This document shows, piece after piece, positions 7,004-31,930 of a DNA stretch of 64,000 nucleotides. The notes below the pieces were generated by a model. It saw nothing but the letters and a program-made list of their open reading frames with translations. It searched no databases and had not been told where the DNA came from. The DNA is from Ferrimonas lipolytica (GTDB taxonomy: Bacteria > Pseudomonadota > Gammaproteobacteria > Enterobacterales > Shewanellaceae). Positions within the stretch are counted from its first letter, which is position 1; the number at the start of each line of letters is the position of its first letter. The DNA lies in contig NZ_CP051180.1 of NCBI RefSeq assembly GCF_012295575.1, positions 372,001-436,000 on the forward strand. The letters run 5' to 3'. A program made the translations under genes and the position numbers.

Positions 7004-7109
7004 GGTGCCCCGGTCCTCTCGCAATGTTAATTCGTTTACCTGGTCAGGCCCGGAAGGGAGCAGCCAAGGCGGAGGATGCATGTGCCGGGATGTGGCTGGG
7101 GGGCCACCC
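7004..7109 (+). ncRNA. ffs: 4.5S signal recognition particle RNA
   Basis: The apical domain is intact: GGTCAGGCCCGGAAGGGAGC then AGCCAAGGC, containing the GGAA tetraloop region and the asymmetric internal loop that binds Ffh. The 3' part GTGCCGGGATGTGGCTGG is the family signature. The 5' GGTGCCCC pairs with GGGGGCCACC at the 3' end to close the hairpin. Length is about 106 nt, as expected for the small gammaproteobacterial form. The RNA with Ffh targets inner-membrane proteins to FtsY/SecYEG. It is also the attachment site of the transposon that begins 17 bp downstream, so a native terminator is not seen at its 3' side. Confidence 0.95.
7046..7077 (+). other. Protospacer in ffs recognised by the transposon's own guide
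   Basis: These 32 bp match the guide at 29898-29929 in 22 positions with no gap. Mismatches are at 6, 7, 12, 13, 18, 24, 26, 27, 30 and 32. The two bases before it are TC, so the base next to the target is the C of an I-F PAM while CC is not complete. There are 49 bp between the protospacer end and the transposon end, the usual I-F3 integration distance. Confidence 0.85.
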
Positions 7110-7126
7110 AAAGCTCCTTATCTATT

Positions 7127-7200
7127 TGTCGTTTGAACCATAAGTCTGCATAGCGGAAGCATAAAGCTGCATAACTGGCAGTATAAGTCTGCATAGACTA
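7127..7200 (+). repeat. Left end with three TnsB-binding repeats
   Basis: After the terminal TGTCG three related 15-mers follow: CATAAGTCTGCATAG, CATAAAGCTGCATAA and TATAAGTCTGCATAG. Tn7-type left ends carry spaced TnsB sites of this kind. The same layout, partly shortened, recurs at 31189 and 43655. Confidence 0.85.
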
Positions 7201-7238: not shown

Positions 7239-7856
7239 ATGTACAGACGCAATCTCGGTCATTCTCGGGTCAAAAATCTCTTTCGCTTCGCCAGCCCCAA
7301 AATGAACAGCGTGCTGACGGTTGAATCGTCGCTCGAGTTCGATGCCTGCTTTCATTTTGAATATTCCCCGAAAATTGAGCATTTCGAAGCGCAGCCCCAA
7401 GGCTTTTACTACCCGTTTAACGGTCGCGACTGCGGTTACACCCCAGACTTCGCGGTAGTTGAAAATGGAGTGCGTCGGTTTATCGAAGTAAAACCGCAAC
7501 GTAAAACCCTAAACAGCGACTTCCGCAGCCGTTTCCATGCGAAACAGATAAAGGCTAAGGAATTGGGAAGCTCGTTAGTTCTGGTGACAGACAAGCAGAT
7601 TTGCGTAAACCCCATACTCAGTAACCTTAAATTACTGCATCGATATTCAGGCTTTCAGGCCATGACGCCGTTGCATCTGTATCTGCTTAAGCTCGTTAAA
7701 TGCATTGGGGTGGTGAGCGTTGCTGAACTTATAGAGGAAAGTGGTGAAGAGCCGGGCTCTGTACTAGCAACTACCTTGTCCTTGGTTGCAGGGGGCGAAA
7801 TAACAACGGATCTTCTCAATAGCACTTTGGGGTTAGATACGCGGGTCTGGTGCTAA
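7239..7856 (+). CDS. tnsA: Transposon endonuclease TnsA
   Basis: A 205-residue protein that cuts the 5' strand at the transposon ends, so that with TnsB the element is fully excised. The restriction-endonuclease-like core is visible: E33 in SSLEFDACF, D70 in YTPDFAV, and E83 with K85 in IEVKPQRK. This gives the E-D-ExK site of TnsA. The C-terminal half has a winged-helix character, where TnsA meets TnsC. The start has GGCGACAGAAG before the ATG. Length is that of stand-alone I-F3 TnsA proteins. It overlaps or abuts tnsB and runs in the same direction as ffs. Confidence 0.95.
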   Translation: MYRRNLGHSRVKNLFRFASPKMNSVLTVESSLEFDACFHFEYSPKIEHFEAQPQGFYYPFNGRDCGYTPDFAVVENGVRRFIEVKPQRKTLNSDFRSRFHAKQIKAKELGSSLVLVTDKQICVNPILSNLKLLHRYSGFQAMTPLHLYLLKLVKCIGVVSVAELIEESGEEPGSVLATTLSLVAGGEITTDLLNSTLGLDTRVWC

Positions 7857-7858
7857 AG

Positions 7859-9748
7859 ATGTCTTCTGATTCTGGCGATATGGCGTTTCCAAGCTTTGAA
7901 GATGAATTCGTTCCTGAGCTGCCGGTGCAGGAGCAGAGCCCTGCTAACGATGGGCCGGAACCTATCCCACGCGATATCGCAAGCTATCCAGAGGCTGTCC
8001 GAGATGAAACCTACCGACGTATAGCCTACTTACGGTGGTTTCGTGACAATCTGAAAGGAGGCTGGACTCAAAAGAACATTGAGCCGTTAATCGCCCAAGC
8101 TAAGTCTGCTATTGGAAAGCCTGCGCCAAGCTGGCGAACGCTGGCTTCGTGGTGGCAGACCTACAAAAAGGCAGGATATTCAATTCAAGCATTAGTGCCT
8201 AAGCATGGTAATAAGGGCAACACCAAATCGAGAACTAGCTCTGGAGAGCAGCAATTTTTCGACAAGGCTATTGAGCGTTACTTGATCCCTCAACGCCCTT
8301 CAGTCGCGGCGGTGTATCAGTTTTACAAAGATTCCATTCGTGTTGAAAACCTTAAGTTGTTGGGAGATAAAGTAGCTCCCATTTCCTACCGGGCATTTCT
8401 AGATAGGATAAATCGATTACCCCCTTACGAGGTGATGAAGGCTCGCCATGGTAAGTACAAAGCTGATGTTGAGTTCAATGCTATTGGCCGCCACATTCCA
8501 CCAACCCGGGCACTTGAACGGGTTGAAATTGACCATACTCCGCTGGACCTTATCTTGCTCGATGATGAGCTGCACATCCCGTTAGGTCGTGCGTTTTTAA
8601 CCCTGCTCATCGACAGCTACAGCAAGTGCGTAGTGGGCTTTCATATTGGCTATAAAGAGCCTTCCTATTACTCAGTCAAGATGGCACTGCTCAATGCTAT
8701 GAAGCCGAAAGAGGAGCTATGCAGACGTTTCCCACAGCTGAGAAATGACTGGCCCTGCCACGGGAAAATAGAAACGCTGGTTGTTGATAATGGAGCTGAA
8801 TTTTGGAGTAAGAGCCTAGAGCAAGCTTGCCTTGAAGTGGTTACCGATATTCAGTTCAATCCGGTCAAGCGTCCTTGGTTAAAGCCGATGGTTGAGCGTA
8901 TTTTTGGCAAGATAAACAGTGAGTTGCTTATTTCTATGCCGGGCAAAACCTTCTCTAACATCCTCGAGAAGGAAGATTACAACCCAGCCAAAGATGCGGT
9001 GATCCGATTCAGCACTTTCAACGAGCTTTTTCATCAATGGATTATCGATGTGTATCACATGGAGTCTGACAGTCGGTGTCAATGGATCCCTTATTATACT
9101 TGGCAGCAGTCGGTAGCACATTTGCCTCCACTTCCTTTGTCTAATGACGACCAAAAGAAGCTTGAAATCGTCTTAGCTCAGAGTGATTATCGGAAGCACC
9201 GCCGTGGCGGCATTCAAATTCATAACCTTCGTTATGACAGTGATAAGTTCGCTACCTACCGGAAGTACCATACCGCCAATCGTGGTCGGAGCGAACAGCC
9301 CTCGGTACTGGTAAAAACCAACCTGGATGACCTTTCCTATATTCATGTCTACGTTGAGCAACTGAAGGGATATATGGTTGTGCCTTGTGTAGATCCTGTT
9401 GGTTACACCAAGGGCTTGTCTTTGCAGCAACATAAAGTGAACTGCTGCTTGCATCGAGAGTTCATCAAAGGACAGTTGGATCTCGATAGCTTGGCTCAGG
9501 TGCGCATGGCTATACATCAGCGCATTGAACAAGAAGTGACGGAGCTTAAAGAGGGTAAACGCAGTGGCAAAGTGAAGCAGGCTGCAAAGCTCGCGCGTCA
9601 TCAGGGAGTATCCAGTGTTGGCGCAGGGACTGTTGTATCGAAACTACTTGAAGGTTCCATAGCGGCCATTCAAGAAGAAGAGACTAAATCAGATCTCCCA
9701 AATCAAGATGACTGGGATGCTATGCTTTCTGGGCTAGAGCCTTACTGA
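7859..9748 (+). CDS. tnsB: DDE transposase TnsB
   Basis: A ~629-residue retroviral-integrase-type transposase that binds the end repeats and joins 3' ends to the target. The N-terminal helix-turn-helix region (about residues 45-110) includes RDNLKGGWTQKNIEPLI. The DDE site is D225 (EIDHTPLD), D310 (VVDNGAEF) and E346 (KPMVERIF), a DD35E spacing. The C-terminal tail is charged, as expected for TnsC contact. The ATG at 7859 is preferred; a GTG at 7850, overlapping the tnsA stop, would add three residues. The stop overlaps the tnsC start (TGATG). Confidence 0.95.
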   Translation: MSSDSGDMAFPSFEDEFVPELPVQEQSPANDGPEPIPRDIASYPEAVRDETYRRIAYLRWFRDNLKGGWTQKNIEPLIAQAKSAIGKPAPSWRTLASWWQTYKKAGYSIQALVPKHGNKGNTKSRTSSGEQQFFDKAIERYLIPQRPSVAAVYQFYKDSIRVENLKLLGDKVAPISYRAFLDRINRLPPYEVMKARHGKYKADVEFNAIGRHIPPTRALERVEIDHTPLDLILLDDELHIPLGRAFLTLLIDSYSKCVVGFHIGYKEPSYYSVKMALLNAMKPKEELCRRFPQLRNDWPCHGKIETLVVDNGAEFWSKSLEQACLEVVTDIQFNPVKRPWLKPMVERIFGKINSELLISMPGKTFSNILEKEDYNPAKDAVIRFSTFNELFHQWIIDVYHMESDSRCQWIPYYTWQQSVAHLPPLPLSNDDQKKLEIVLAQSDYRKHRRGGIQIHNLRYDSDKFATYRKYHTANRGRSEQPSVLVKTNLDDLSYIHVYVEQLKGYMVVPCVDPVGYTKGLSLQQHKVNCCLHREFIKGQLDLDSLAQVRMAIHQRIEQEVTELKEGKRSGKVKQAAKLARHQGVSSVGAGTVVSKLLEGSIAAIQEEETKSDLPNQDDWDAMLSGLEPY

Positions 9749-10785
9749 TGGGTGTATTGACTGATGAGCAATTGCAGCGACTGGAAACGTTCAAAAATTG
9801 CTTTGTTGAGCAGCCCATAGTTACTCAGATCTTCGAGGACTTTGACCGGCTCCGGTTTAACCATCGGCTTGGCGGCAGTCAGCAATGTATGCTAGTTACT
9901 GGTGACACTGGCGCTGGGAAGACAGAGCTCATTAAGCATTATTTGAAGCGGGTGCCCCATATCCAAGGCGGCGGTTATACGCATAGACCGGTTCTGTTGA
10001 GCCGGATCCCTAGCCATGCGAATTTAAATTCAACCCTTATCGAATTACATAAAGATCTCGGCCACCCATTCAGCACCCGTAGACGGGGCCGGAGCAACGA
10101 CCAGTCACTAACAGAATCTCTGGTTCGGCTGCTATCGAGTTGTGGCACGGAGCTGATCATCATTGATGAATTTCATGAATTACTGGAATTCCAGTCTGAT
10201 GCCTCGAGAGCTGGCATCGCTAATCGCTTGAAGTTTATCAGTGAAAAGTCAGAGATCCCCATTGTGCTGGTTGGTATGCCCTGGGCTGAGAAGATCGCTG
10301 AAGAACCACAATGGGGGCGGCGGCTTATCAATCGCAGGACCATCCCTTACTTTAAGTTGTCTGAACAACCAAAACATTACCTGCAATTTCTGATGGGGTT
10401 AGCGCTACGGATGCCCTTTAATAAACCTCCAAAACTGGAGTTGCAGCATACGGCTTACGCATTGTTTGCTGCTAGCCGTGGGCGCGTAAGTGATCTCAAA
10501 GAATTTCTTTACGAAGCGACTAAGTTAGCACTTAGCGAACGAGCTGAAACACTCACAGTTGCGCAAATGGTAGAGACTTTTCGTATGTGGTTTCCAGATT
10601 TGGTTAATCCCTTTGAGCTTGATGTTGACGCTATTCAAGCGTCGGAAGCCCTAGAGTATTCACAATACGATTTCGAAGCACTGAAGGGCACCAATCCAAT
10701 TATTGAGACAACCTTCACTCAGCGGGTCCCTATCTCGCAGCTTCTCAGCAAGTCACCGGCGCTGAAAGCACCAAGGAAAACTTGA
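9748..10785 (+). CDS. tnsC: AAA+ target-selection ATPase TnsC
   Basis: A 345-residue AAA+ regulator that links the target complex (TniQ-Cascade) to TnsAB and confers target immunity. Walker A is GDTGAGKT near residues 52-59. Walker B is LIIIDEFHEL near 136-145. VLVGMPWAEKI and RRLINRRTIPYF provide the sensor and arginine-finger region. The final residues after about 285 form a tail. Translation is coupled to tnsB through TGATG. Two Xre dyads begin 4 bp after its stop. Confidence 0.95.
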   Translation: MGVLTDEQLQRLETFKNCFVEQPIVTQIFEDFDRLRFNHRLGGSQQCMLVTGDTGAGKTELIKHYLKRVPHIQGGGYTHRPVLLSRIPSHANLNSTLIELHKDLGHPFSTRRRGRSNDQSLTESLVRLLSSCGTELIIIDEFHELLEFQSDASRAGIANRLKFISEKSEIPIVLVGMPWAEKIAEEPQWGRRLINRRTIPYFKLSEQPKHYLQFLMGLALRMPFNKPPKLELQHTAYALFAASRGRVSDLKEFLYEATKLALSERAETLTVAQMVETFRMWFPDLVNPFELDVDAIQASEALEYSQYDFEALKGTNPIIETTFTQRVPISQLLSKSPALKAPRKT

Positions 10786-13169: not shown

Positions 13170-13189
13170 TTGAATTTAAAGGTATGGAA

Positions 13190-14488: not shown

Positions 14489-14499
14489 CGGTATCGCTC

Positions 14500-17622: not shown

Positions 17623-17715
17623 CTGCAATCAGTTAAAGGGAAGGTGGTAGCAACTCAATGTTGCCTGTCGTTTGCCTAACCCGACAGTACAACCCAGATA
17701 ACTGCTGCTTTCCCG

Positions 17716-17746
17716 CGCCTGTTTGATTATCTCAAACAGGCGTTTT
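17716..17746 (+). terminator. Terminator of the czc operon
   Basis: An 11-bp perfect stem CGCCTGTTTGA/TCAAACAGGCG with a short loop, followed by TTTTCGT. It lies about 95 bp after the czcA stop. Confidence 0.9.
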
Positions 17747-17805
17747 CGTATGCTAATTTGGATAAAGCAAGCTAGCTAGGGTGTCAATTGAGATGATTTG
17801 TAGCT

Positions 17806-18144
17806 ATGAAATTGAAACTAAAACGAGCTTTTCAGGCCGAGATGCAACATGCAATGAGGTATTACAAAATTGGAGACTACACTGCAGCATTTTATCATCT
17901 GGAACGTAGCCATATCCTAGGACAATCCTATGTTATTCCCCATACCAAATCGCATTGGTGGATGCTGAAGATCGGTCTTAAAACCAAAAGTGGCAAAGAG
18001 GTGCTAGGGCAACTCATGCGGATCCTTGCTTCGATATTGTTTTCGCGGCTCTGGGTTCCTATTGGTAATACGGGGGGCACGAATGTGAGTCCATTGAAAG
18101 CAATGCCAATTCCACAAGACCTTAGATCGCTTCTTGATGATTAG
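17806..18144 (+). CDS. DUF3703-family protein
   Basis: A 112-residue basic protein without signal peptide or membrane segment. Residues about 8-60 (FQAEMQHAMRYYKIGDY, AAFYHLERSHILGQSYVIPHTKSHWWML) form a helical pair like the DUF3703 domain found beside heavy-metal resistance genes. The conserved ERSHILGQ and HTKSHWWML segments with His residues could bind metal, but this is inference. It stands downstream of the czc terminator as a separate unit. Confidence 0.75.
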   Translation: MKLKLKRAFQAEMQHAMRYYKIGDYTAAFYHLERSHILGQSYVIPHTKSHWWMLKIGLKTKSGKEVLGQLMRILASILFSRLWVPIGNTGGTNVSPLKAMPIPQDLRSLLDD

Positions 18145-18176
18145 TTGGTTTCTTTTGCCAAACGCCCCTTACTTTG

Positions 18177-18249
18177 AATGACCGCTCGTGGCCGTTTGGA
18201 GCCGGTTATGTTGTTGCCTTCAGACGCCTTCGTGCCCATTCCGGTCATT
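18177..18249. repeat. Extragenic palindrome with AATGACCG/CGGTCATT ends
   Basis: AATGACCG (18177-18184) and CGGTCATT (18242-18249) are exact inverted ends of a 73-bp block after the DUF3703 gene. Related sequence occurs at 11231, 19878, 22668, 23747 and 44482. All copies lie between genes. Confidence 0.6.
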
Positions 18250-18427
18250 GGCTAGACGAGATTTAGTGCTCCATCGCCTTTAACTTACTGGTGTTTTTAC
18301 ACGGCACTTAGAAATTTCTGGCATGAACTAGCGAGGGGCCACTTTATTTCAAAATGCCCTGTTGAAAAAAGCATCATTCAAAGCTAACGTGCGTGATATT
18401 AAAGGATTATGTACAAGGAACATCATT

Positions 18428-19003
18428 GTGAATAAAAAGCAGATCAAAATACTAGCTGTTGTTGCCTCGTCATTTATAAGCACTAGCGTGTTCGCGTCCG
18501 ATGCAGAAATTCTGAAACTGGGTCCGTATACAGGTCTCCTATGGCCTGACGGTTCTGGAGTCATTGGTAAGCCATATGATGTCGAAAAATTTAAGGATAG
18601 ATGGTCTTTTTTAATTAAAGTGGATGAAATGAATGATGATCAAGAAATAACGGTTGATAGAAAAGCATATAAGAACACAGATGAATTTGGGAAAATTAGA
18701 TTATCGGCAAACATATATCTGTGGCTAAATATATCCAAGGCAGAAGAAGAGATTTTATGCGTCGCGGGCCATGACTACCCAGGAAAAAAAGCAATGATAA
18801 GGGTTGATAAACATGACCCAATTGAAACAAATGTAAGTGGTTGCGTGGCTCTTGATGATGAGCTGGACTCATTGTTGAAGGGTGGCACTAAAATTACGAT
18901 TAGAGGTTACCATTGGCCATACGGTGGCGCAGAAACATTTCAAATTGATTTGGCTGGATACACAACAACCATCGACTTTCTTAGAGGCAAAAGGCGGGAG
19001 TAG
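18428..19003 (+). CDS. Secreted protein of unknown function (AT-rich cargo)
   Basis: A 191-residue product. GTG at 18428 is chosen because AAGGA lies eight bases upstream and the following MNKKQIKILAVVASSFISTSVFA is a clean signal peptide; an earlier TTG at 18362 would bury it. The mature part has two cysteines (EEILCVAGHDY and VSGCVALD) that may form one disulfide, and mixed beta-type sequence. I do not recognise a family. The region is more AT-rich than the czc genes, which suggests a different origin. It lies 78 bp before the PIN-like gene and may share its transcript. Confidence 0.6.
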   Translation: MNKKQIKILAVVASSFISTSVFASDAEILKLGPYTGLLWPDGSGVIGKPYDVEKFKDRWSFLIKVDEMNDDQEITVDRKAYKNTDEFGKIRLSANIYLWLNISKAEEEILCVAGHDYPGKKAMIRVDKHDPIETNVSGCVALDDELDSLLKGGTKITIRGYHWPYGGAETFQIDLAGYTTTIDFLRGKRRE

Positions 19004-19081
19004 TGTATAACGTTCAGAGGCACTCAAATAAAATCAAATTTGTCTGGCATTACAGGAACTAGACTCAACAGGGGTAATCTT

Positions 19082-19819
19082 ATGCCTACTATATTAGTAG
19101 ACCAGAACATTGTGACTTATGGAGACATAATGAGGCCAACGAGAAGCAATGGCGTTATAGGTTATCGGAGAAAAGACCCAGTTGGCGAGGATGGTAGCTG
19201 GTTAAGGCGTGAGTTCAGAGCCCTACCAACTGTTTCAAAGCTGATAATAGCTGGAGATATATCAGCTTTTAGATATGTAGAATTAGATTTTGAAAACTGG
19301 AAAAGGAAAGGCTCGGCTTCTGGTTCAAATCTAGGCAACTTGTTTCCTAATTCAGTAATGAAGCAAGTTGAGCCTGCGATAGAACGCTCATATTATTTCC
19401 AAGCGTTCATGAATGAGTACTTATACACACGTTCTGTAGCCAATTTTTGCAAATGGCTTAACACTAAGGGAATTGAAGAAAGTGCACTAAAGGTAGCAAA
19501 GTCTAAAAATGCTACTGATGATATGTTGCGAAATATTCGTAATGTATCGAGATATCAAGAAATGTGTAAGAAGTTACAAAAAACAGAACAATACATTGAT
19601 GCATTTCATCTCTGGACAGCTGAAATTAATGACATTGAGTATTTTGTCACGGCCGATCGCAAATTCATCAACGCGATTAATAAACTAGATTGCAAATGTC
19701 AGCCGATTTTACCTAGTGAACTACTAACACAGATGAATTTGGAAGCTAGTGAACCATTCCAATTCAAAGAGAATGTGTTTTATGGAATCGGTGGCCAGTA
19801 TATGTGGGAATTCGATTAA
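19082..19819 (+). CDS. PIN-like domain protein, possible nuclease
   Basis: A 245-residue protein. It begins MPTILVDQNIVTYGD, a beta-strand ending in Asp as in PIN nucleases. It ends with YIDAFHLWTAEINDIEYFVTADRKF, in which D-x6-E/D and TAD-R-KF match the later acidic residues of the PIN fold. The middle is an alpha-helical insertion. RNase activity is inferred, not shown. ATG 19082 is preferred over the in-frame 19040 because AGGGG precedes it and the domain begins at once. No partner antitoxin is recognised; the secreted protein gene upstream is the only close neighbour. Confidence 0.55.
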   Translation: MPTILVDQNIVTYGDIMRPTRSNGVIGYRRKDPVGEDGSWLRREFRALPTVSKLIIAGDISAFRYVELDFENWKRKGSASGSNLGNLFPNSVMKQVEPAIERSYYFQAFMNEYLYTRSVANFCKWLNTKGIEESALKVAKSKNATDDMLRNIRNVSRYQEMCKKLQKTEQYIDAFHLWTAEINDIEYFVTADRKFINAINKLDCKCQPILPSELLTQMNLEASEPFQFKENVFYGIGGQYMWEFD

Positions 19820-19926
19820 CTGGTGATTTTAGTATATCTGACAGTACATCGGTGTCGATCTTCTGAGTAATAGTTCCAATGGCCGCTCCTGGCCGTAAGC
19901 GACTGTTAGTGGTTTGGGGGCCAGCA

Positions 19927-21222
19927 GAGGGTGTTCATAACTCTGTGTCAGTAATCTAATTCACAAGTCGATGTATTCGTCCAATCGACCCTCAAAGTGG
20001 ATCGACAACTGAGACAGCGTCAAATTCCAATTCTGGATGGGGTGCGACCAGCGCTCCGACGCCTTCAATATACCGGCGTAGAGAAGCTTGAGTAAACCGT
20101 TCTCGCTGGCAAAGCCACCTTTGGTTTTGGTCAGCTTCCGAAATTGGCGGTGCACGGCCTCAACAGCATTAGTGGTGTATATGGCTCGTCGCACGTAGTC
20201 CGGGTATCTAAAGTACGCTGAGAGCAGCGCCCACTTGCTTCGCCAGGACTTGATAACGACGGGATATTTTTCACCCCATTTGGCTTCCAGTTCGTCCAGA
20301 GCTGTTTCTGCTGCGGCGAGCGTAGCAGCTTTATAAACGCATTTCAGATCAGCCATAAAGGCCTTTTGGTTCTTTGAGGCAATGTACTTCATTGAGTTTC
20401 GGATCTGGTGGATGATGCAGAGCTGGACTTCGGTTTTCGGGAAGATAGTCGCAATGGCTTCAGGGAAGCCTTTGAGGCCGTCTACGCAGGCGATGATGAT
20501 ATCTTTAATCCCACGATTGTGGAGATCGGTCAGGATGCTGAGCCAGTGGTGGGCGCCCTCATTATCAGACAGGTATAAGCCCAAAAGCTCTTTCTTTCCC
20601 TCAACATTCAAAGCAAGAATTGTGTAAATCGCTTTAGTGACGTAGCGGCCATTTTCTTTGATTTTGTAGTGGATAGCATCAAGCCAGACAATGGGGTACA
20701 GGGCTTCAAGATCCCGTTCTCGCCAAGCCTGTAGCTCGGGTAGCAACTTGTCTGTGATGGCGCTAATCGTGCCGTTAGAGACCTCGATGTCGTACATGTC
20801 CGCGATATGAGCACGGATATCTTGGTAGCTAGTGCCCAACGAAAACATAGCGATGATCTTGCGTTCCATTTCATCAGTCAGGTGGGTCTGATGCTTTTTC
20901 ACCAACTGAGGCTCAAATGTGCCGTCTCGGTCTCGAGGTGTATTGAGTTCAAAGCTACCCGCTGCGGTTTTGACCCTTTTGGGAGTCTTGCCGTTTTTGC
21001 GATTATTGGAGCCATCCTCAGCCAGATGCTGGTCCAGCTCGGCCTTGAGGGCAGCTTCGGTGAGTTGTTTGATGAGGGGCGTCAGGATGCCATCTTTACC
21101 GGTCAGGTCTTGGCCTGAGCGAAGTGCCTCAATGGCGGCTTCCATGTCGAAAGTAGGTTTGGTCATTCGCTATTCCTTTTGGATTGATTTTAAGCAAATG
21201 ACACAGAAATCTGAACACTACC
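19927..21222 (-). mobile_element. Complete IS256-family insertion sequence
   Basis: About 1296 bp, with imperfect inverted ends sharing GTGTTCA and TCTGTGTCA. The flanks are a perfect 8-bp target duplication GGCCAGCA (19919-19926 and 21223-21230), which fixes the borders and shows insertion by transposition. It carries one intact transposase gene. Confidence 0.92.
19961..21166 (-). CDS. IS256-family transposase
   Basis: A 401-residue Mutator-type DDE transposase. The catalytic segments are IVWLDAIHYKIKENG (first Asp), IIACVDGLKGFPEAIATIFP (second Asp), and TTNAVEAVHRQFRKLTKTKG (Glu). The last two features, with LCIIHQIRNSMKYI between them, are diagnostic of the family. The gene fills the IS on the minus strand and appears undamaged. 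Confidence 0.95.
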   Translation of the reverse strand: MTKPTFDMEAAIEALRSGQDLTGKDGILTPLIKQLTEAALKAELDQHLAEDGSNNRKNGKTPKRVKTAAGSFELNTPRDRDGTFEPQLVKKHQTHLTDEMERKIIAMFSLGTSYQDIRAHIADMYDIEVSNGTISAITDKLLPELQAWRERDLEALYPIVWLDAIHYKIKENGRYVTKAIYTILALNVEGKKELLGLYLSDNEGAHHWLSILTDLHNRGIKDIIIACVDGLKGFPEAIATIFPKTEVQLCIIHQIRNSMKYIASKNQKAFMADLKCVYKAATLAAAETALDELEAKWGEKYPVVIKSWRSKWALLSAYFRYPDYVRRAIYTTNAVEAVHRQFRKLTKTKGGFASENGLLKLLYAGILKASERWSHPIQNWNLTLSQLSIHFEGRLDEYIDL

Positions 21223-21352
21223 GGCCAGCACTCTCGGTCGTTTCTTGTGAGACTTTGATTTTGACCAGGTGGTTCTCTGTGACACTTTGTGCGCAATTCA
21301 CCTTCCGTGGGCGTCTTGATGCGCTTTCAGGGCATAGCAGGCCATGAAATGA

Positions 21353-21503
21353 GTGGTTCTCTGTGACGGTTGGCTTTTTTATCGGTGGTTATTTGTGACA
21401 GTTAGCCTTTTTCCGGTGGATCCTTGTGACAGTTGGCTCTTTCACCGGTGGTTCCTTGTGACAGTTTGCCCTTTCACCGGTGGTTCCTTGTGACAGTTTG
21501 CAG
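21353..21503. repeat. Five tandem ~32-bp repeats (GTGGTTCCTTGTGACAGTTT unit)
   Basis: Units begin at 21353, 21385, 21416, 21448 and 21480, each with GTGG then TTGTGACAGTT (first copy CTGTGACGGTT) and a pyrimidine-rich tail TTTCACCG. A looser copy starts near 21265 (GTGGTTCTCTGTGACAC). Spacing of 31-32 bp is three helical turns. Repeated sites of this type are seen at ends of some IS families (for example IS21) and at iteron-like binding sites. Confidence 0.7.
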
Positions 21504-21866
21504 CTTCATGTGGCCATGACTCAGAAGCGCCCTTAGCGGAGAGCCGCTATGGTAGACAGGGAAGGAAGTAAGTCCCTGGAGTCCCTCTCTCTCAATGATC
21601 TCAGCCACTTTGTGGATCGCATCCACGACAGCCCGCTCTTCTGGCTTGGCAGCGAGGTCGTCATGCCGGATATCGTTCCGGACGTAATCGGCCATGATGG
21701 CAACCTCGCGGCCCTGGCAAATGACTCCCCCTTCAGCTTTGAAAAGCCCTTCGAGCCTGCCCTTGCCCTCATTGGCTAGGTACGCGATGGCGCCTTTCAC
21801 CTGGGGTTCTGCGGCTCGCATCAAAAGCCGAGTTGCGTCACCTACTTCGTAGCGAACCATCCACAC
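21474..21866 (-). CDS. Unknown protein downstream of the AbiEi-like gene, 3' end merged with repeats
   Basis: A ~130-residue frame with start MVRYEVGDATRLLMRAAEPQ. It looks coding (EGVICQGREVAIMADYVRND type composition, mixed helix). I do not recognise a family; it is not the usual AbiEii nucleotidyltransferase. The last ~12 residues are encoded by the 32-bp tandem repeat, so the native C-terminus was probably lost when that repeat was placed there. It follows the AbiEi-like gene by 62 bp on the same strand. Confidence 0.4.
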   Translation of the reverse strand: MWMVRYEVGDATRLLMRAAEPQVKGAIAYLANEGKGRLEGLFKAEGGVICQGREVAIMADYVRNDIRHDDLAAKPEERAVVDAIHKVAEIIEREGLQGLTSFPVYHSGSPLRALLSHGHMKLQTVTRNHR

Positions 21867-21928
21867 TTACCCCTTTGTTTTGGCCACTTGTCTCGTGCGA
21901 CAAGTCGGCACCTATCTCATGCGACAAG

Positions 21929-22567
21929 TCAGTTAAAAGACGCCATTTCGAGGTATGGCATCATGACCCGCTGCATTCGAAGCCGACCGGCATAGGCCCA
22001 GAGCTTGCCGTGGTCGATCCGCTTGCTCCGCTGGGCTTCGACGAGCGCTTCCATGGCGACGTCCAGGCCGATCTTGGACCGGAACTTGAAGCACTCCACC
22101 AGGGTGCGCTCGATGGAGGTCACTCGGACCGGCACGCCCTCGATCTCTATGGTGTCGATGCCAAAGTCTCTCAAGTGCTCCGACAGTCGGATTGCTCGGA
22201 TCGGCGGGCAGTCGATGGCAGGCACCCGGCCTTTGGGCTCTATCGCTAGCCACACCTGAAATGGCTGCTGGGTGCCGATCTCGTGGAGGCGCAGGGCTGT
22301 CAGCAGGCACACGACCGCTGATGGGGCGGCCTTCACAGCTTCTGCGATCCCGGAGTGCTCTGAGATATCTCGGTCTGGCCAGCAGTAAAGGCCCCGTCGG
22401 AGCTTCTCAAGCTTGCCCATCTTGACCCAATGCGCAAGGCTGCTGCGGCTTACGCCCATGGCGTCAGCCTCTGCCGAAGTGAAGATTGGACTACCTCTAA
22501 GCTTGTCGAGAGCCGTTTCCACACCAAATCCCTGCTGTACGTAATGTCGGTAAAGCATGACTTTCAT
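21929..22567 (-). CDS. AbiEi-like antitoxin/transcriptional regulator
   Basis: A 212-residue protein. The N-terminal winged helix-turn-helix is FTSAEADAMGVSRSSLAHWVKMGKLEKLRRGLYC (about residues 28-62). It is followed by the AbiEi-type domain: AVVCLLTALRLHEIGTQQPFQVWLAI, then IEGVPVRVTSIERTLVECFKFRSKIGLDVAMEALVEA. In type IV toxin-antitoxin systems AbiEi represses the operon and neutralises the AbiEii nucleotidyltransferase. No AbiEii is found downstream here, so this is either an orphan or a regulator from a broken system. Its GC-rich sequence contrasts with the AT-rich cargo on either side. Confidence 0.75.
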   Translation of the reverse strand: MKVMLYRHYVQQGFGVETALDKLRGSPIFTSAEADAMGVSRSSLAHWVKMGKLEKLRRGLYCWPDRDISEHSGIAEAVKAAPSAVVCLLTALRLHEIGTQQPFQVWLAIEPKGRVPAIDCPPIRAIRLSEHLRDFGIDTIEIEGVPVRVTSIERTLVECFKFRSKIGLDVAMEALVEAQRSKRIDHGKLWAYAGRLRMQRVMMPYLEMASFN

Positions 22568-23909: not shown

Positions 23910-23921
23910 TCTGGTGTATTG

Positions 23922-25145
23922 ATGGAATTGTTGATAACCCCAAAGCCCTTTGTTGACGAGTCACTTGAAAGCTATCTGCTCCGTTTGGCAGAGGAGAATG
24001 GCTTTGAGTCGTATCAGGTGTTTAGTGCGGTGGTGCACGAGTGGCTGCAGGAGCATGACCATCGAGCTGCGGGGGCCTTTCCGCTTAGCCTTGGTTTGCT
24101 TAATGTATTCCATGCTAATCGCAGCAGTGGCCTTCGGGTTCGAGTCATCCAGTTGTTTGAGCAATTGGCCCATTCGGGGGAGTTGCCGCTGCTCAAGCTT
24201 GCGTTGATGCATTCATCTGCCACTTTCGGTAAACGTCGTGCAGCGGTGTTTCGTGATGGTATTGATATTCCGCGTAGCTTTATCCGTTTATGCGGAATCC
24301 CTGTCTGTCCTGCATGCCTAAATGAGCAGCCCTATATCCGTCAACGTTGGCACTTTAAACCCTACAGCGTCTGTCATAAGCATGGTATTACGTTAATCAG
24401 TAATTGCCCCGGTTGTGGGGAGCTTTTGGATTACCAGAACAACGAGCTGATAACTCATTGCCACTGTGGTTACGACTTGCGTTTTGCAGGGCAGGAGAAG
24501 GCGACAACTGAGACGTTACAGCTTAGTCGGTTAGTTTCGGGGGAGACCGTTGAGGGCACAGACCCTTTATCCACTGCCATTAACCTGTCTGTGCGTTTTG
24601 GAGCGTTGCAGTGGTTTGAGGCGTTTTCTGGCTGTGAACTTACTGAGCAAGAGGCAATCAGCAAGGCTATTGAGTTCTTCAACGGCTGGCCACAAGGCTT
24701 GGTTGACGGGTTGGAACTACGACGGGAGCATGCGGAGTTGCGGTTGGTGAAGAGCTACAACCGAACATTGTTTGCTGAGGTGTTCGGCGAGTTGTTGCTG
24801 GATGCTCGAAAGTTACCAATGCGGGACTTAGGACGAAACTTCGTCTTGAAGGCCATTATTGATTACCTATCCGAGCTGGTTCGAAATAACGCCCAGTCCA
24901 AGCAAGCCAATGTCGGCGATGTTCTCTTGAGTCTGGTGGAGGCAGCAGCCGTGCTCTCTAGTAATGCGGAAGCGGTTTATCGCCTGTACCAGGAAGGTTT
25001 CCTTGTATTGGCCGTGCGACCTAAAGGGAGGAGCAAGCTGGAAACTTATACGCCAGCATTTCGGCTGAGGGACGTAATGGAACTTCGGCTGGCACGAATG
25101 CAGTCACAGAATGATAGCGGTGATCGCTATCTGCCAGCTTGGTGA
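23922..25145 (+). CDS. tniQ: TniQ/TnsD-family target-site adaptor
   Basis: A 407-residue protein that binds Cas6-Cas7 of the Cascade and recruits TnsC. The N-terminal LLITPKPFVDESLESYLLRLAEENGF is the TniQ signature. A zinc finger follows with CPACLN, CHKHG, CPGC and CHCGYDLRF (about residues 123-190). The C-terminal half is helical. It is shorter than Tn7 TnsD (about 508 aa), as in I-F3 elements. ATG 23922 is chosen; a TTG three bases upstream is less likely. It opens the tniQ-cas8/5-cas7-cas6 operon. Confidence 0.95.
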   Translation: MELLITPKPFVDESLESYLLRLAEENGFESYQVFSAVVHEWLQEHDHRAAGAFPLSLGLLNVFHANRSSGLRVRVIQLFEQLAHSGELPLLKLALMHSSATFGKRRAAVFRDGIDIPRSFIRLCGIPVCPACLNEQPYIRQRWHFKPYSVCHKHGITLISNCPGCGELLDYQNNELITHCHCGYDLRFAGQEKATTETLQLSRLVSGETVEGTDPLSTAINLSVRFGALQWFEAFSGCELTEQEAISKAIEFFNGWPQGLVDGLELRREHAELRLVKSYNRTLFAEVFGELLLDARKLPMRDLGRNFVLKAIIDYLSELVRNNAQSKQANVGDVLLSLVEAAAVLSSNAEAVYRLYQEGFLVLAVRPKGRSKLETYTPAFRLRDVMELRLARMQSQNDSGDRYLPAW

Positions 25146-25150
25146 AGCTC

Positions 25151-27268
25151 ATGCATCTTGATGAACTATTAGCAGTAAGGGATCGAGAAGAAAGGGACAA
25201 GCAGTTACGACGCGCCTTCTCGCCGGCTACGGCCTTGATTGAGGTGTCGGGCAGCGAACTAAAAGCTCTTACGATCTTATGCAATCTCACCTTTAAGCGG
25301 GCAGACGTCACGGATTTACTCTCCGTCGCTCAAGCCAAGCAAGCGCTAACTGATCCGGTTCATTTTGAGCACTGCGTGAACGAGGTGAAATGGTTCCATA
25401 GTCACAATCTTAAATATCCAGATTCGCGAGTCAGTCACCAGCGTTTGATATTGCCAAGTCCAGAAGCCACTTTAGGCGTGATTAGCTCTAGTGAAGAGCC
25501 GGAGTTACTTGGATGGTCTCATAACAGCACCGAGATAAACCGCTCAAAGCTATTCTGCACCGCATTCCTGATGGCTGGGAGGAGTACTTGTTTGGTACGT
25601 GAAATCATTCAACATCCATCGAAGTGGCTGCCGCGATTAGCGCAACGATGCCTGCCTGCAGAGCAGCGGAAGCGGTTGAGCCAAAGGCTTAGTGATTGCT
25701 TGCCCGAAACTTCAACGCCTAATGAAGTCAGCCCGTACTCCAAACAGGTTAGGATGTTTGATGGACACCGCTATCGTTCGCTGACGCCCGTGGTTAGCCA
25801 CAGCCTACAAAGTAAGATCCAACAACTGGCCAATAGCCATCAGCTTAGGGCAACGACTATTGAGCATGCACACCCTGCTGCTGTTGGGGATTTAACTGCT
25901 AGTCAAGGCGGACGCGTACGAGCATTGTTTTACCCACCACCTGTATATTTGAGTAAAGCTGAAGGGCTGTCGGGGGCCCGGAGCAAGCAAGCTCAGCAGG
26001 GGCGTTCGGTATTCGATCTTACAGCTCTGAAAAATAAGCGTTTCGTTGCTGCGCTGGATCAACTCATCGGCAATCAAGGGTTCCAGACCTTACGGGCTAA
26101 GCGAGAGTCACGAATTGAGGCATTACGAACAGTCCGAAAAGCTCTGGCTCAGTGGTTAGCACCAGTGTTGGAATGGCGGGATGCGCTTGAGCGAGAAAAG
26201 ACAGGGCTAAACCTAGAAAACGGACTCGAAAGGGGGCTGCTAGAAACGCCACAGGCAGACCTACCAGAGTTACTGGATCCATTATCGAATCGCTTACAGG
26301 AAGAGCTGCAGGTCGTTGGCCGTGGTAAAGCATATGCTTACCATCCGCAGTTGATGTCACCTTTGAAAAGTCAGCTGAAATGGTTGTTGGGTCAATTAGC
26401 GAGAGAAGATGACCATTCGAGTACTTCGGCGACGATGAGTTATCTGCACTTATCAGGTTTGCGAGTATTTGATGCGCAAGCACAAAGTAACCCTTATGTC
26501 GTTGGAATTCCGTCACTGTCAGCCCTTTGGGGACTAACGCATAATTTTGAACGTAGGCTGACAGAGCGATTAGGGCGACCGATACAAATCGTCAATGTCG
26601 CTTGGTTTATTCGGCAGTACAACCTTTCCGACAGCAAGAAGTTGCCAGAGCCGAATACCCCTAGAAAGCTTAGACAGCAATCGGAGATCAAGAGACCCGG
26701 AATTCTTGATAGTAAGCTCTGTGATATCACCATGGAGCTGGTGCTTAAAGTCGTGACGCCTCCAGAAGTTGAGCCTTTAACCCAAGCAGAGTTTAATTTG
26801 GTGCAAGCGGCATTCCCTTCAAACTTTGCAGGAGGTTGTCTGCAGCCGCCATGTCTATATGAATGTACCGAGTGGTGTAAGCTTCATACATCTCCCCAGG
26901 AGTTGTTTGATGAGCTTGTGCGACTACCTCGAGGAGGGTGCTGGGTTTATCCAACAGATGAGAAAATCACTTGTTTAGACGATCTGGGACCGTTGCTGAC
27001 AAAGAAGCAAAACTACCGGCCTGTTTCTGCAGGGTTTGTGGCATTGGAAGAGCTGCAGTGTCGTGCAGGTAGTGTGGAATCTTCGCATTGCTATGCCGAG
27101 CCGGCGATTGGTTTAGTTGATTGCATTGGGCCAATTGAGGTGCGCTTTGCTGGACTAAAGCACTTCCTAGAAAATGCATTCTGGCATATGGATGTGACCG
27201 ATCGAGCTATGCTTTTGAAAAAGGCCCCTCTGCTGGAGTTGTTCTATGGAATTGGGCAGACATCTTAA
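25151..27268 (+). CDS. cas8-5: Type I-F3 Cas8/Cas5 fusion
   Basis: A ~705-residue large subunit that recognises the PAM and the crRNA 5' handle. The fused form is diagnostic of I-F3 CASTs; defence I-F systems have separate Csy1 and Csy2. The N-terminal part with LPSPEATLGVISSSEEPELLGW and YRSLTPVVSHSLQSKI resembles Csy2-like Cas5. The remainder is poorly conserved and helical, as Cas8 is. Assignment rests largely on order, length and the neighbouring cas7 and cas6. ATG 25151 follows the tniQ stop by 5 bp; GTG 25142 is an alternative. It overlaps cas7 by 23 bp. Confidence 0.88.
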   Translation: MHLDELLAVRDREERDKQLRRAFSPATALIEVSGSELKALTILCNLTFKRADVTDLLSVAQAKQALTDPVHFEHCVNEVKWFHSHNLKYPDSRVSHQRLILPSPEATLGVISSSEEPELLGWSHNSTEINRSKLFCTAFLMAGRSTCLVREIIQHPSKWLPRLAQRCLPAEQRKRLSQRLSDCLPETSTPNEVSPYSKQVRMFDGHRYRSLTPVVSHSLQSKIQQLANSHQLRATTIEHAHPAAVGDLTASQGGRVRALFYPPPVYLSKAEGLSGARSKQAQQGRSVFDLTALKNKRFVAALDQLIGNQGFQTLRAKRESRIEALRTVRKALAQWLAPVLEWRDALEREKTGLNLENGLERGLLETPQADLPELLDPLSNRLQEELQVVGRGKAYAYHPQLMSPLKSQLKWLLGQLAREDDHSSTSATMSYLHLSGLRVFDAQAQSNPYVVGIPSLSALWGLTHNFERRLTERLGRPIQIVNVAWFIRQYNLSDSKKLPEPNTPRKLRQQSEIKRPGILDSKLCDITMELVLKVVTPPEVEPLTQAEFNLVQAAFPSNFAGGCLQPPCLYECTEWCKLHTSPQELFDELVRLPRGGCWVYPTDEKITCLDDLGPLLTKKQNYRPVSAGFVALEELQCRAGSVESSHCYAEPAIGLVDCIGPIEVRFAGLKHFLENAFWHMDVTDRAMLLKKAPLLELFYGIGQTS

Positions 27269-28286
27269 CTACACCCGTTCGCTATCCCCCGGTAAGGCGG
27301 TGTTCTTCTATAAAACTCAAGATAGCGATTTTGTCCCGCTGCCTGTCGAAGTGAACAAAATAAACGGCCAGAAGTGTAGTTATGGGGAGGGTTACGATGC
27401 ACAGTTCAGGGCAAAGAAGAGTGAGACCAAAGACTTGGCATTTGGAAACCCTCACACCATTGAATCCTGTTACGTGCCCCCTCTGGTCGATGAACTTCAA
27501 TGTAGATTTTCGCTACGGGTCGAAGCCAACTCGTTAGCCCCGAATCTTAGCGACGATCCCAAAGTCAATCGTTGGCTTGTAAAGCTGGCTGAGGGCTACA
27601 GGCTGGCTGGAGGCTATCAAGAGCTAGCGCGTCGCTACGCCAAGAACATGCTAATGGGCACCTGGCTTTGGCGTAATCAGCAAACAATGGGAACAGCGAT
27701 ACAGGTTCTCACTGCCAGTGGCTCGTGTTACGAAATTGAAGATGCGCGGCGACTGGACTGGCAAAGCTCTTGGCCCGAGTCGACAAACTCTGCGTTAGAA
27801 GGGCTTGCATTAGAGCTGTCTGAGGCATTGAGTGATCCCAATCAGTTTTGGTTTGCGACCGTGACAGCCACCCTGAAAGTTGCCTTCTGCCAAGAGATCC
27901 ACCCCAGTCAACAATTTACCGAAAATGTTGAGCGAGGTATTCCTTCTAAGCAGCTAGCGAAGGTTGAATGCATTGATGGTAACTATGCGGCCAGCTTCCA
28001 TGCTGAAAAAGTTGGGGCGGCTCTGCAGTCGATAGATGATTGGTGGGATGACGATGCCGACATTCCTCTGCGGGTTCATGAGTACGGAGCCAACAAAAGT
28101 GCTTTAGTCGCACTGCGTCATCCTGTTACTGGTCGGGATTTCTATCAGCATCTAAAACGTACTGCGTATTACATTCGTCGACTACGTGGTTGCGAGAAGG
28201 ACGATGGCAGTGATATTCCAAACGAAATTCATTATCTGATGTCGGTACTGCTCAAAGGCGGTTTGTTTCAACAAGGGAAAGGCTGA
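27246..28286 (+). CDS. cas7: Type I-F Cas7 (Csy3) backbone subunit
   Basis: A 346-residue protein; six copies coat the crRNA spacer and force every sixth base out of the guide-target duplex. It begins MELGRHLNYTRSLSPGKAVFFYK, the strong Csy3 N-terminus. Later family parts are FSLRVEANSLAPNL, YAKNMLMGTWLWRNQ and VHEYGANKSALVALRHP. Length is typical (about 340). The gene overlaps cas8/5 at its start and cas6 at its stop (TGATG), so expression is coupled. Confidence 0.93.
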   Translation: MELGRHLNYTRSLSPGKAVFFYKTQDSDFVPLPVEVNKINGQKCSYGEGYDAQFRAKKSETKDLAFGNPHTIESCYVPPLVDELQCRFSLRVEANSLAPNLSDDPKVNRWLVKLAEGYRLAGGYQELARRYAKNMLMGTWLWRNQQTMGTAIQVLTASGSCYEIEDARRLDWQSSWPESTNSALEGLALELSEALSDPNQFWFATVTATLKVAFCQEIHPSQQFTENVERGIPSKQLAKVECIDGNYAASFHAEKVGAALQSIDDWWDDDADIPLRVHEYGANKSALVALRHPVTGRDFYQHLKRTAYYIRRLRGCEKDDGSDIPNEIHYLMSVLLKGGLFQQGKG

Positions 28287-28903
28287 TGGAGCAACGATAC
28301 TTCTTTGCCATTCGTTATGTGGCAAAGCGTGCTGATTTTGCATTGCTGGCCGGGCGCTGCATCTCGGTACTACACGGTTTTTTGTCGCGTCATCAGCTCA
28401 CAGGAATCGGTGTTAACTTTCCTGATTGGACGGAATCCTCACTTGGCCAGACAATTGCGTTTGTCGGTAAAGATGTTGGTTTTCTGGGTCAGCTTCGGAA
28501 GCAAAGCTACTTTGAAATGATGGAAAGAGATCAACTTTTTGAACGCTCTAAACTTAAACCAGTTCCGCAGGGCTGTCGGGAGATTCAGTTTAAGAGAAAT
28601 CAAAATATCGCGAAGTGCTTTCCCGGTGAGAAACGTCGAAGGTTAGAGCGCGCAAAGCGCAGGGCTGAAGCACGAGGGGAGGTGTTTGCTCCAGCAGAAA
28701 CGGGTCAAGCTAGCCAGTTAGAAGCCTTCCACAGCATATTGATGCATAGCAAGAGCAGTAGCCAACAATATCTTCTTCATATCCAAAGAAAAGTTGGATT
28801 GGAGTTGGTATCGGAAGATTTTGGTCAATATGGCTTGGCGACAAATTTGATACATCAAGGGACACAGCCTGAGTTACCGCGTGGACGAACCCTTTTTGAT
28901 TAA
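28286..28903 (+). CDS. cas6: Type I-F Cas6 (Csy4) crRNA endonuclease
   Basis: A 205-residue protein that cuts the repeat hairpin and stays bound to the 3' handle. MEQRYFFAIRYVAKR forms the first ferredoxin-like strand. RCISVLHGFLSRHQLTGIGVNFPDW includes H30, the position of the catalytic histidine in Csy4. The C-terminal domain has the arginine-rich helix GEKRRRLERAKRRAEARG that reads the hairpin groove. It should cut after the CTGCC-GTATA-GGCAG stem in the local repeats. Confidence 0.93.
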   Translation: MEQRYFFAIRYVAKRADFALLAGRCISVLHGFLSRHQLTGIGVNFPDWTESSLGQTIAFVGKDVGFLGQLRKQSYFEMMERDQLFERSKLKPVPQGCREIQFKRNQNIAKCFPGEKRRRLERAKRRAEARGEVFAPAETGQASQLEAFHSILMHSKSSSQQYLLHIQRKVGLELVSEDFGQYGLATNLIHQGTQPELPRGRTLFD

Positions 28904-29017: not shown

Positions 29018-29286
29018 GTGAACTGCCGTATAGGCAGCTGGGAAATCAATGGTACGGAGCCGCCGGGGTGGAAGCTATGTGAACTGCCGTATAGGCAGCT
29101 GGGAAATCATCGATGCTCGGGTTGGTCGGGCACAATGTGTGAACTGCCGTATAGGCAGCTGGGAAAAGTACAAAAGTGCAATTCTGATACAGCAACATGT
29201 GAACTGCCGTATGGGCAGCTGAGAAAGACAGCTATCGATCAGCGGCATCAGCATCAATGTAAACTGCTGTATAGGCAACTGATACT
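29018..29286 (+). CRISPR. I-F3 array, five 28-bp repeats and four spacers
   Basis: Repeats start at 29018, 29079, 29139, 29199 and 29259. The first three are identical: GTGAACTGCCGTATAGGCAG then CTGGGAAA, with a CTGCC/GGCAG stem. The fourth changes two bases (ATGGG, CTGAGAAA). The fifth is clearly diverged (GTAAACTGCTGTATAGGCAA, ending CTGATACT). Spacers are 33, 32, 32 and 32 nt. None matches another part of this window by eye. About 115 bp of leader separates it from cas6. With no adaptation genes, spacer gain would need Cas1-Cas2/3 from elsewhere. Confidence 0.95.
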
Positions 29287-29318
29287 AGCTCCCTAGTAAA
29301 GCAACTAAGTCCAGAAGT
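29287..29318 (+). CRISPR. Decayed ffs-like guide after the diverged last repeat
   Basis: The 32 bases after the fifth repeat match the single private guide (29898-29929) at 18 positions and ffs 7046-7077 at 15, concentrated in AAAGCAAC-AAG-C. The seed differs at 3, 4, 7 and 8. No further repeat follows. It looks like an older, decayed copy of the chromosomal guide at its usual place at the array end. Confidence 0.5.
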
Positions 29319-29869: not shown

Positions 29870-29929
29870 GTGAACTGCCGTATAGGCAGCTGAGAGTAGG
29901 CCGTGAAGAAAGCAACCAAGACAAAGAAC
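29870..29929 (+). CRISPR. Stand-alone atypical repeat plus ffs-targeting (private) guide
   Basis: The repeat (29870-29897) is GTGAACTGCCGTATAGGCAG followed by CTGAGAGT, so the stem is kept and the last bases differ from the array consensus. The following 32 nt match ffs 7046-7077 at 22 positions; five of the ten mismatches lie at 6, 12, 18, 24 and 30, which Cas7 flips out. No second complete repeat closes it, as in known I-F3 private guides. It has its own promoter and terminator, about 580 bp from the array. Confidence 0.88.
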
Positions 29930-29958
29930 CTGTTTCTGCCGAAGAGGTAGATGGTTAC

Positions 29959-29990
29959 GAAAAGCCCTCAGCGATCTCTGGGGGCTTTTC
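29959..29990 (+). terminator. Terminator of the private guide transcript
   Basis: GAAAAGCCCTCAG and CTGGGGGCTTTTC form a long imperfect stem with GCGATCT as loop and a T-run at its 3' arm. It ends a transcript of roughly 145 nt that starts near 29847. Confidence 0.8.
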
Positions 29991-31182: not shown

Positions 31183-31188
31183 TCTATT

Positions 31189-31265
31189 TGTCGTTTGAAC
31201 CATAAGTCTGCATAGTAGAAACATAAAGCTGCATAGACTAAGTTTTGATGTAGTATTCCTACATT
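31189..31265 (+). repeat. Left end of a second, older Tn7-like element
   Basis: TGTCGTTTGAACCATAAGTC is identical to the first 20 bases at 7127. Then come CATAAAGCTGCATAG and the TGTAGTATTCCTACA dyad at 31249-31263. Compared with the intact element one internal repeat is missing. It stands only six bases outside the right end of the intact CAST. Confidence 0.9.
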
Positions 31266-31279
31266 ATAGGCATAAGTAG

Positions 31280-31613
31280 ATGTATCGCCGTAAGCTTGGT
31301 TACTCAAGGGTTAAAAACCTCTTCCGCTTTGCTAGCTCTAAAATGAACTCTGTTATGACTGTCGAGTCATCATTAGAGTTTGATGCCTGTTTTCATTTCG
31401 AATACTCCTCCAGCATTGATTCGTTCGAGCCTCAACCTCAAGGCTTCTTTTACACCTGAATCGCCGTCAATGTGGCTATACCCCCGACTTTGCGGTTATT
31501 GATAATGGCAATCGGCGTTTCATCGAAGTGAAACCTCAAAGCAAGGTGCTTTAGAGCGACTTTCGAAATCGTTTTTATGCGAAGCAGTTAAAAGCCAATT
31601 CACTAGGGCTGCT
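31280..31613 (+). pseudogene. tnsA: Broken tnsA of the older element
   Basis: The first 60 codons (MYRRKLGYSRVKNLFRFASS, SSLEFDACFHFEYSSS) are very close to the intact TnsA at 7239. A frameshift near 31455 then shifts to the frame reading CGYTPDFAVIDNGNRRFIEV, and a stop follows shortly after KPQSKVL. Similarity ends near NSLGLL at about 31613, where an IS3 fragment begins. The nuclease gene is therefore dead, and no tnsB or tnsC follows. Confidence 0.9.
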
Positions 31614-31615
31614 GT

Positions 31616-31930
31616 GACAATGGGCCTGAATTTGTCAGTGCTGAGTTTGTTAATTGGGCCAAAAGCCACGAAATCAGAGTTGAGTACATTCAACCTGGCA
31701 AGCCTCAGCAGAACGCTTACATCGAGCTACATAACAAAACAGTACGTTACAGTTGAGTCAGCAAGCACCTGTTCGAATCAATTGAAGAGGTGCAGGACTA
31801 TGCGACGGAATGGCTTTGATTTTACAACCATGAACGGCCACACAAAGCCAACAATGGGCGACCACCGTTGATGGCCGCTTTCCCTCTAGTTTTAGCTTCA
31901 GTTAAAAAAGGGAGGACTACCATAGCTAAT
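31616..31930 (+). pseudogene. 3' fragment of an IS3-family orfB transposase
   Basis: The frame begins DNGPEFVSAEFVNWAKSHEI, the second catalytic Asp region. It continues YIQPGKPQQNAYIELHNKTV with the Glu and ends with FYNHERPHKANNGRPPLMA. Two in-frame stops (TGA after TVRYS and after ATEWL) show decay. The fragment is joined directly to the broken tnsA, so an IS-linked deletion probably removed the rest of that element. Confidence 0.85.

Follow-up and report, generated by a model that had tools for sequence, protein, structure and literature searches.

The window analysed here, a stretch of 64,000 nucleotides from Ferrimonas lipolytica, contains the ffs gene, present in one copy in the host genome, and next to it an element that, judged from its genes and ends, is a complete type I-F3 CRISPR-associated transposon (Table 1). 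The genes tnsA, tnsB, tnsC and tniQ, all with Pfam matches, lie between Tn7-type ends, and the hexamer TCTATT flanks both of them, before the left end (7121-7126) and after the right end (31193-31198). The Cascade genes are those of an I-F3 complex, with a fused cas8/5 together with cas7 and cas6, and no interference nuclease was found, the whole host genome giving zero matches to Cas3 (TIGR02562). The guide for ffs stands behind a divergent repeat and the insertion lies downstream of ffs, as expected for an ffs-homing I-F3b element. A scan of element ORFs, which was not dedicated to the RtbC regulator, gave no Xre-family match among the ORFs scanned. In its parts the element does not differ from the Tn6900 type of A. 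salmonicida (I-F3b, ffs-homing), which has the same tnsABC and tniQ-cas8/5-cas7-cas6 genes, no cas3, and likewise a private guide behind an atypical repeat, an ffs att site and a TC PAM; the TC PAM has been reported for 96.6% of ffs-homing I-F3 elements (PMC12774636). The cargo at 11952-22567 comprises an RND efflux system (OEP, AcrB-type), a Mutator-family transposase and an AbiEi-type antitoxin. At 31199-31900, immediately past the right end, we recognised by eye the left end and a broken tnsA of a second, decayed element, a tandem insertion with the same att site as that of the window element.

Table 1. Features of the transposon and its homing target, in coordinates of the window.
Feature	Position	Strand	Basis or remark
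ffs (4.5S signal recognition particle RNA), homing target	7008..7104	+	Rfam RF00169, 67.1 bits, E 1.1e-12
PAM TC adjoining the protospacer	7044..7045	+	read from sequence
Protospacer in ffs	7046..7077	+	22/32 to guide; 22/27 without 6n positions
Left end TGTCG of transposon	7127..7131	+	81 bp from protospacer start
tnsA	7239..7856	+	Pfam PF08722
tnsB	7850..9748	+	Pfam PF09299 Mu-transpos_C
tnsC	9748..10785	+	Pfam PF05621 TniB/AAA
tniQ	23919..25145	+	Pfam PF06527
cas8/5 fusion	25139..27268	+	Cas_Csy2 domain in C-terminal half; full-length relatives in I-F3 elements
cas7 (csy3)	27246..28286	+	PF09615, TIGR02566
cas6 (csy4)	28286..28903	+	PF09618, TIGR02563
CRISPR array, four repeats and spacers	29018..29258	+	repeat search
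Decayed atypical repeat GTAAACTGCTGTATAGGCAACTGATACT, end of main array	29259..29286	+	repeat search, sequence
Decayed older ffs guide	29287..29318	+	18/32 to live guide
Atypical repeat of private guide	29870..29897	+	repeat search, sequence
Private ffs guide, 32 nt, every 6n position mismatched	29898..29929	+	alignment to ffs
Degenerate 3' repeat, hairpin CTGCCGAAGAGGTAG at 29936-29950	29930..29957	+	hairpin start 38 nt past guide start
Terminator-like inverted repeat, G+C-rich	29959..29990	+	repeat search
Right end CGACA of transposon	31188..31192	+	read from sequence

The private guide AGGCCGTGAAGAAAGCAACCAAGACAAAGAAC aligns without gaps to the protospacer AGGCCCGGAAGGGAGCAGCCAAGGCGGAGGAT with 22 matches in 32, the mismatches being at positions 6, 7, 12, 13, 18, 24, 26, 27, 30 and 32, seven of them A in the guide for G in ffs. 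All five every-sixth positions (6n) are among the ten mismatches (hypergeometric P=0.00125 for the window guide alone), and 22 of the remaining 27 positions match. The original prediction had described this alignment and its complete set of 6n mismatches, and both were reproduced exactly; it had also called the atypical repeat a lone one, which was wrong, as a degenerate 3' repeat follows the guide and a decayed repeat ends the main array. In a search of the 64-kb window the top match to the guide was the ffs protospacer itself. The position of the left end, 81 bp away, indicates that ffs is the real homing site of the element, and this distance, the TC PAM and the single-copy ffs together fit the guide to the element's own insertion site. 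The insertion geometry is also a partial answer to whether a better target for the guide exists elsewhere in the genome. The resemblance of the decayed guide to the live one exceeds that of shuffled sequences (P=0.0006) and includes A12, A13 and A18 in both, which suggests that the mismatched state probably predates the split of the two private units.

Relatives of the element were gathered through Cas8/5 genome searches, a Cas6 query over genome contigs having given only two relatives, and each guide was compared with the ffs of its own host. This yielded 57 guides with known host ffs (the window and 56 others), eight of 32 nt, the window included, and 49 short ones, with G680, which has a G-U pair in its hairpin, classed as short. 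For the Vibrio group, where the 3' repeat hairpin begins at 24-26, mismatches past position 20 were excluded; the group names Vibrio and Shewanella were inferred from gene content together with published work. Position 6 is mismatched in 54/57 guides, position 12 in 57/57 and position 18 in 53/57, and positions 24 and 30 in all eight 32-nt guides. The exceptions to the low mismatch of the other positions within the first 20 are positions 3 (12%), 4 (19%) and 13 (37%), where the host ffs itself varies, and position 4 tracks the host letter (46/57 match); past position 20 the 32-nt guides have more mismatches. A phase scan of the seven other 32-nt guides gave 83% mismatch at phase 0 against 10-29% at other phases (combined P=2e-8 for the 6n excess, the guides not being fully independent), and for the 49 short guides the values were 99% (146/147 6n cells) and 1-8%. 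The count of mismatches by position in related elements, each set against its own host ffs, for which the original prediction had called, thus shows a clear excess at 6n: 93-100% at 6n and mostly 0-7% elsewhere among the 57 elements. At position 12 the guides have A, T or C and never the G of the host. Variation of the host ffs at 6n was rejected as a general cause, host position 12 being G in 57/57. Second copies of ffs with changes in the protospacer seed were observed in G692 (L084/L145) and G403 (L259); the one in G692 lies after the array and before the right end, 275 bp past the private guide, and is apparently carried within the element as a version that the guide should not recognise.

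The short ffs guides belong to two groups, f21 (a Vibrio-like group; loci L092-L177, arrays L059-L144) and f20 (L063-L066, L254-L258). In both, the match to ffs extends to position 20, and the hairpin of the 3' repeat begins 23-25 nt past the guide start, compared with 35-39 in elements with 32-nt guides. From protospacer start to left end the distance is 68-72 bp, compared with 79-83 for 32-nt guides; a single case, G103, is ambiguous. Target duplications of 5 bp were found in nine elements. These distances argue that f21 and f20 elements use ffs guides of about 20 nt, 12 fewer than 32, and have their insertion point about 12 bp nearer, and as 20 is 3x6+2 and 32 is 5x6+2, the guide would be shorter by two Cas7 units. 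No description of 20-nt ffs guides with a shifted insertion was found in the literature searched. The natural occurrence of such guides, together with the displaced insertion, suggests that I-F3 Cascades of reduced length function in nature, and it bears on guide design for CRISPR-guided integration tools. Many f21 left ends (L101, L102, L153 and similar) begin with TGAAGCCTGCAAT...ATTGCAGGCTTTCTTC; such a hairpin could give ffs back the terminator from which the insertion separates it.

Protein-coding att sites offer a comparison at places without an RNA fold. The Shewanella I-F3 elements at rsmJ and cobO (PMC12452197) have the same machinery, and the guides for rsmJ, for cobO (a name that we base on PMC12452197 and on the encoded sequence) and for a fourth gene are in codon frame, with wobble bases at 6n and 6n+3. 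Wobble mismatches are similar in total, 39/61 at 6n and 33/61 at 6n+3, but those outside the synonymous set number 22 at 6n and 0 at 6n+3 over the three coding sites; these guides share ancestry, and by eye the changes amount to about nine independent events, still one-sided. Letters outside the synonymous set occurring only at 6n support the view that 6n is unread. Taken over the ffs site and the three coding sites, the alignments thus show the 6n positions released from matching, while those between track the host. No avoidance of the matching base was seen in the coding att guides, unlike the ffs guides: at rsmJ the 6n mismatch is about 60%, which is drift-like, whereas in ffs guides it is near-total. 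This difference points to a cause connected with ffs. At L046/L047 (G312, G487), two different rsmJ private guides stand in tandem, one of them having at position 24 a TAG that resembles a stop codon, an arrangement that suggests an old guide being replaced by a new one.

We propose, with a probability of about 0.7, that the window guide is the homing guide of an I-F3 transposon in which the 6n positions are unread and so free to mismatch, and that in ffs guides the matching base is then mildly harmful. TniQ-Cascade would pair the guide with ffs in five-base blocks, each sixth base being flipped out, so that positions 6, 12, 18, 24 and 30 would need no match. Mismatches would first have arisen there as harmless changes, and ffs guides would then have kept them through a mild harm of the matching base, which appears clearest for G at 12. 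The leading candidate for this harm is that a matched guide would re-form the hairpin of 4.5S RNA (C5-G12, C6-G11 and position 4 with 18) and thereby impede its loading or its pairing with the target. The natural guides indeed have a weaker predicted fold than their 6n-matched versions (mean ensemble energy -1.7 vs -3.6 kcal/mol); restoring position 12 alone barely alters the fold, though this is the strictest position, and the triple 6, 12, 18 ranks 124th of 1140 triples for opening it. Taken together, these values lend weak to moderate support to hairpin avoidance as one candidate reason for the 6n mismatches. Against the proposed explanation as a whole stand three cases in which host and guide both have A18.

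The harm could alternatively reside in long identity with ffs, broken by the mismatches. Taken as an explanation in its own right, this would mean that the six-spaced mismatches limit recombination between guide and ffs as direct repeats, which would delete the element or corrupt ffs. In the window the two are indeed repeated in the same direction, at a distance of about 23 kb, and the longest identical run is exactly 5 in 48/49 short guides and 5-6 in 5/8 long ones; however, runs of up to 14 are kept in coding att guides and recombination is rare anyway at 20-32 bp, and we consider this explanation unlikely. Slightly less so, but still doubtful, is pure neutral drift, under which unread 6n letters would wander freely and mismatch at about 75%. 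The rsmJ, cobO and fourth sites fit it, in the frequency of their 6n mismatches and in the occurrence of some letters beyond any host codon, and so do the eight deep 32-nt ffs lineages when taken alone (34/40 cells mismatched, a little above 75%). Over all ffs guides, however, positions 6, 12 and 18 together are mismatched in 164/171 cells. A quick Cas8/5 tree, which also supplied the rates, puts the changes at position 12 at about nine, all of them between A, T and C and none to G; many guides on it share ancestry, and the elements are mobile between hosts. Fitting put the weight of the matching base at about 0 within the short-guide clade and at 0.16 when all elements were included, with likelihood-ratio statistics against drift of 17.9 and 14.8, respectively. 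Change at 6n is slower than at four-fold codon sites (joint rates about 1.0 vs 2.9), and under simulated drift matches came out this scarce in 1.5-1.9% of the runs with rate 1.0 and in 0/1000 with the four-fold-site rate. For positions 6 and 18 taken one by one, drift was not rejected. We therefore hold with moderate confidence that ffs guides avoid the matching base at 6n beyond what drift would leave.

An intrinsic dislike of Cas7 for a flipped-out G, regardless of target, would account for the absence of G at position 12 from every private guide examined. Yet ordinary spacers have G at position 12 in 19/120 and at other 6n positions in 20-23%, and private guides occur with G at 6 (the window), 18 (G413, G403) and 24 (G312). 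With no base preference at 6n in the 120 ordinary spacers, this candidate was rejected and we regard it as improbable. Even less credible is the purpose assigned to the mismatches by the original prediction, namely that selection removed unneeded identity and thereby hid the guide from a defence Cascade of the host. Class 1 effectors generally flip out every sixth base, the I-F1 complex of P. aeruginosa included (PMC12774636, PMC11127173), and a 6n mismatch should hide nothing from defence Cascades that skip the same bases. Moreover, a type I-F Cas3 is present in only 4/58 ffs-homing hosts, that of the window not among them, and the 6n pattern is the same in hosts with and without it; in one host that has it (G599), the guide is mismatched only at 6, 12 and 18 and matches at 17/17 read positions. 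The privacy of I-F3 att guides is reported to depend on tolerance of mismatches and on an ambiguous PAM, and the features known for it are atypical repeats, this PAM ambiguity and mismatched bases at positions that are read (PMC11406308). In the window, where positions 7 and 13 are mismatched and the PAM is TC instead of CC, privacy appears better credited to these known features, and the 6n mismatches of private guides require another explanation. What stands of the idea of selection is that mismatches cluster at flipped-out positions throughout the family, at ffs and at three coding sites, and that the matching base is rarer in ffs guides than drift would make it; concealment from a defence Cascade as the purpose does not.

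With somewhat better than even odds, then, ffs guides have been selected against matching the flipped-out bases, one large branch having a natural 20-nt guide, two Cas7 units shorter, with the insertion about 12 bp closer, and homing guides would record which bases are read by TniQ-Cascade. They would provide an evolutionary readout, in living hosts, of the bases read by a Class 1 CRISPR complex. No description of mismatches spaced by six was found in the literature searched; the founding I-F3 paper (Petassi et al., 2020, Cell) was outside that search and may mention them. A related case is VpCAST of Vibrio parahaemolyticus (I-F3a, yciA), in which a natural spacer has a mismatch at position 12, like the ffs guides, judged harmless by the authors as the base is flipped out (PMC12774636). 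There it is a single 6n mismatch in a plasmid-targeting spacer, whereas the ffs family has mismatches at all 6n positions, in att guides and in dozens of elements. In VpCAST a fully mismatched segment 25-29 abolished transposition (PMC12774636); natural ffs guides nevertheless have some mismatches in 25-29.
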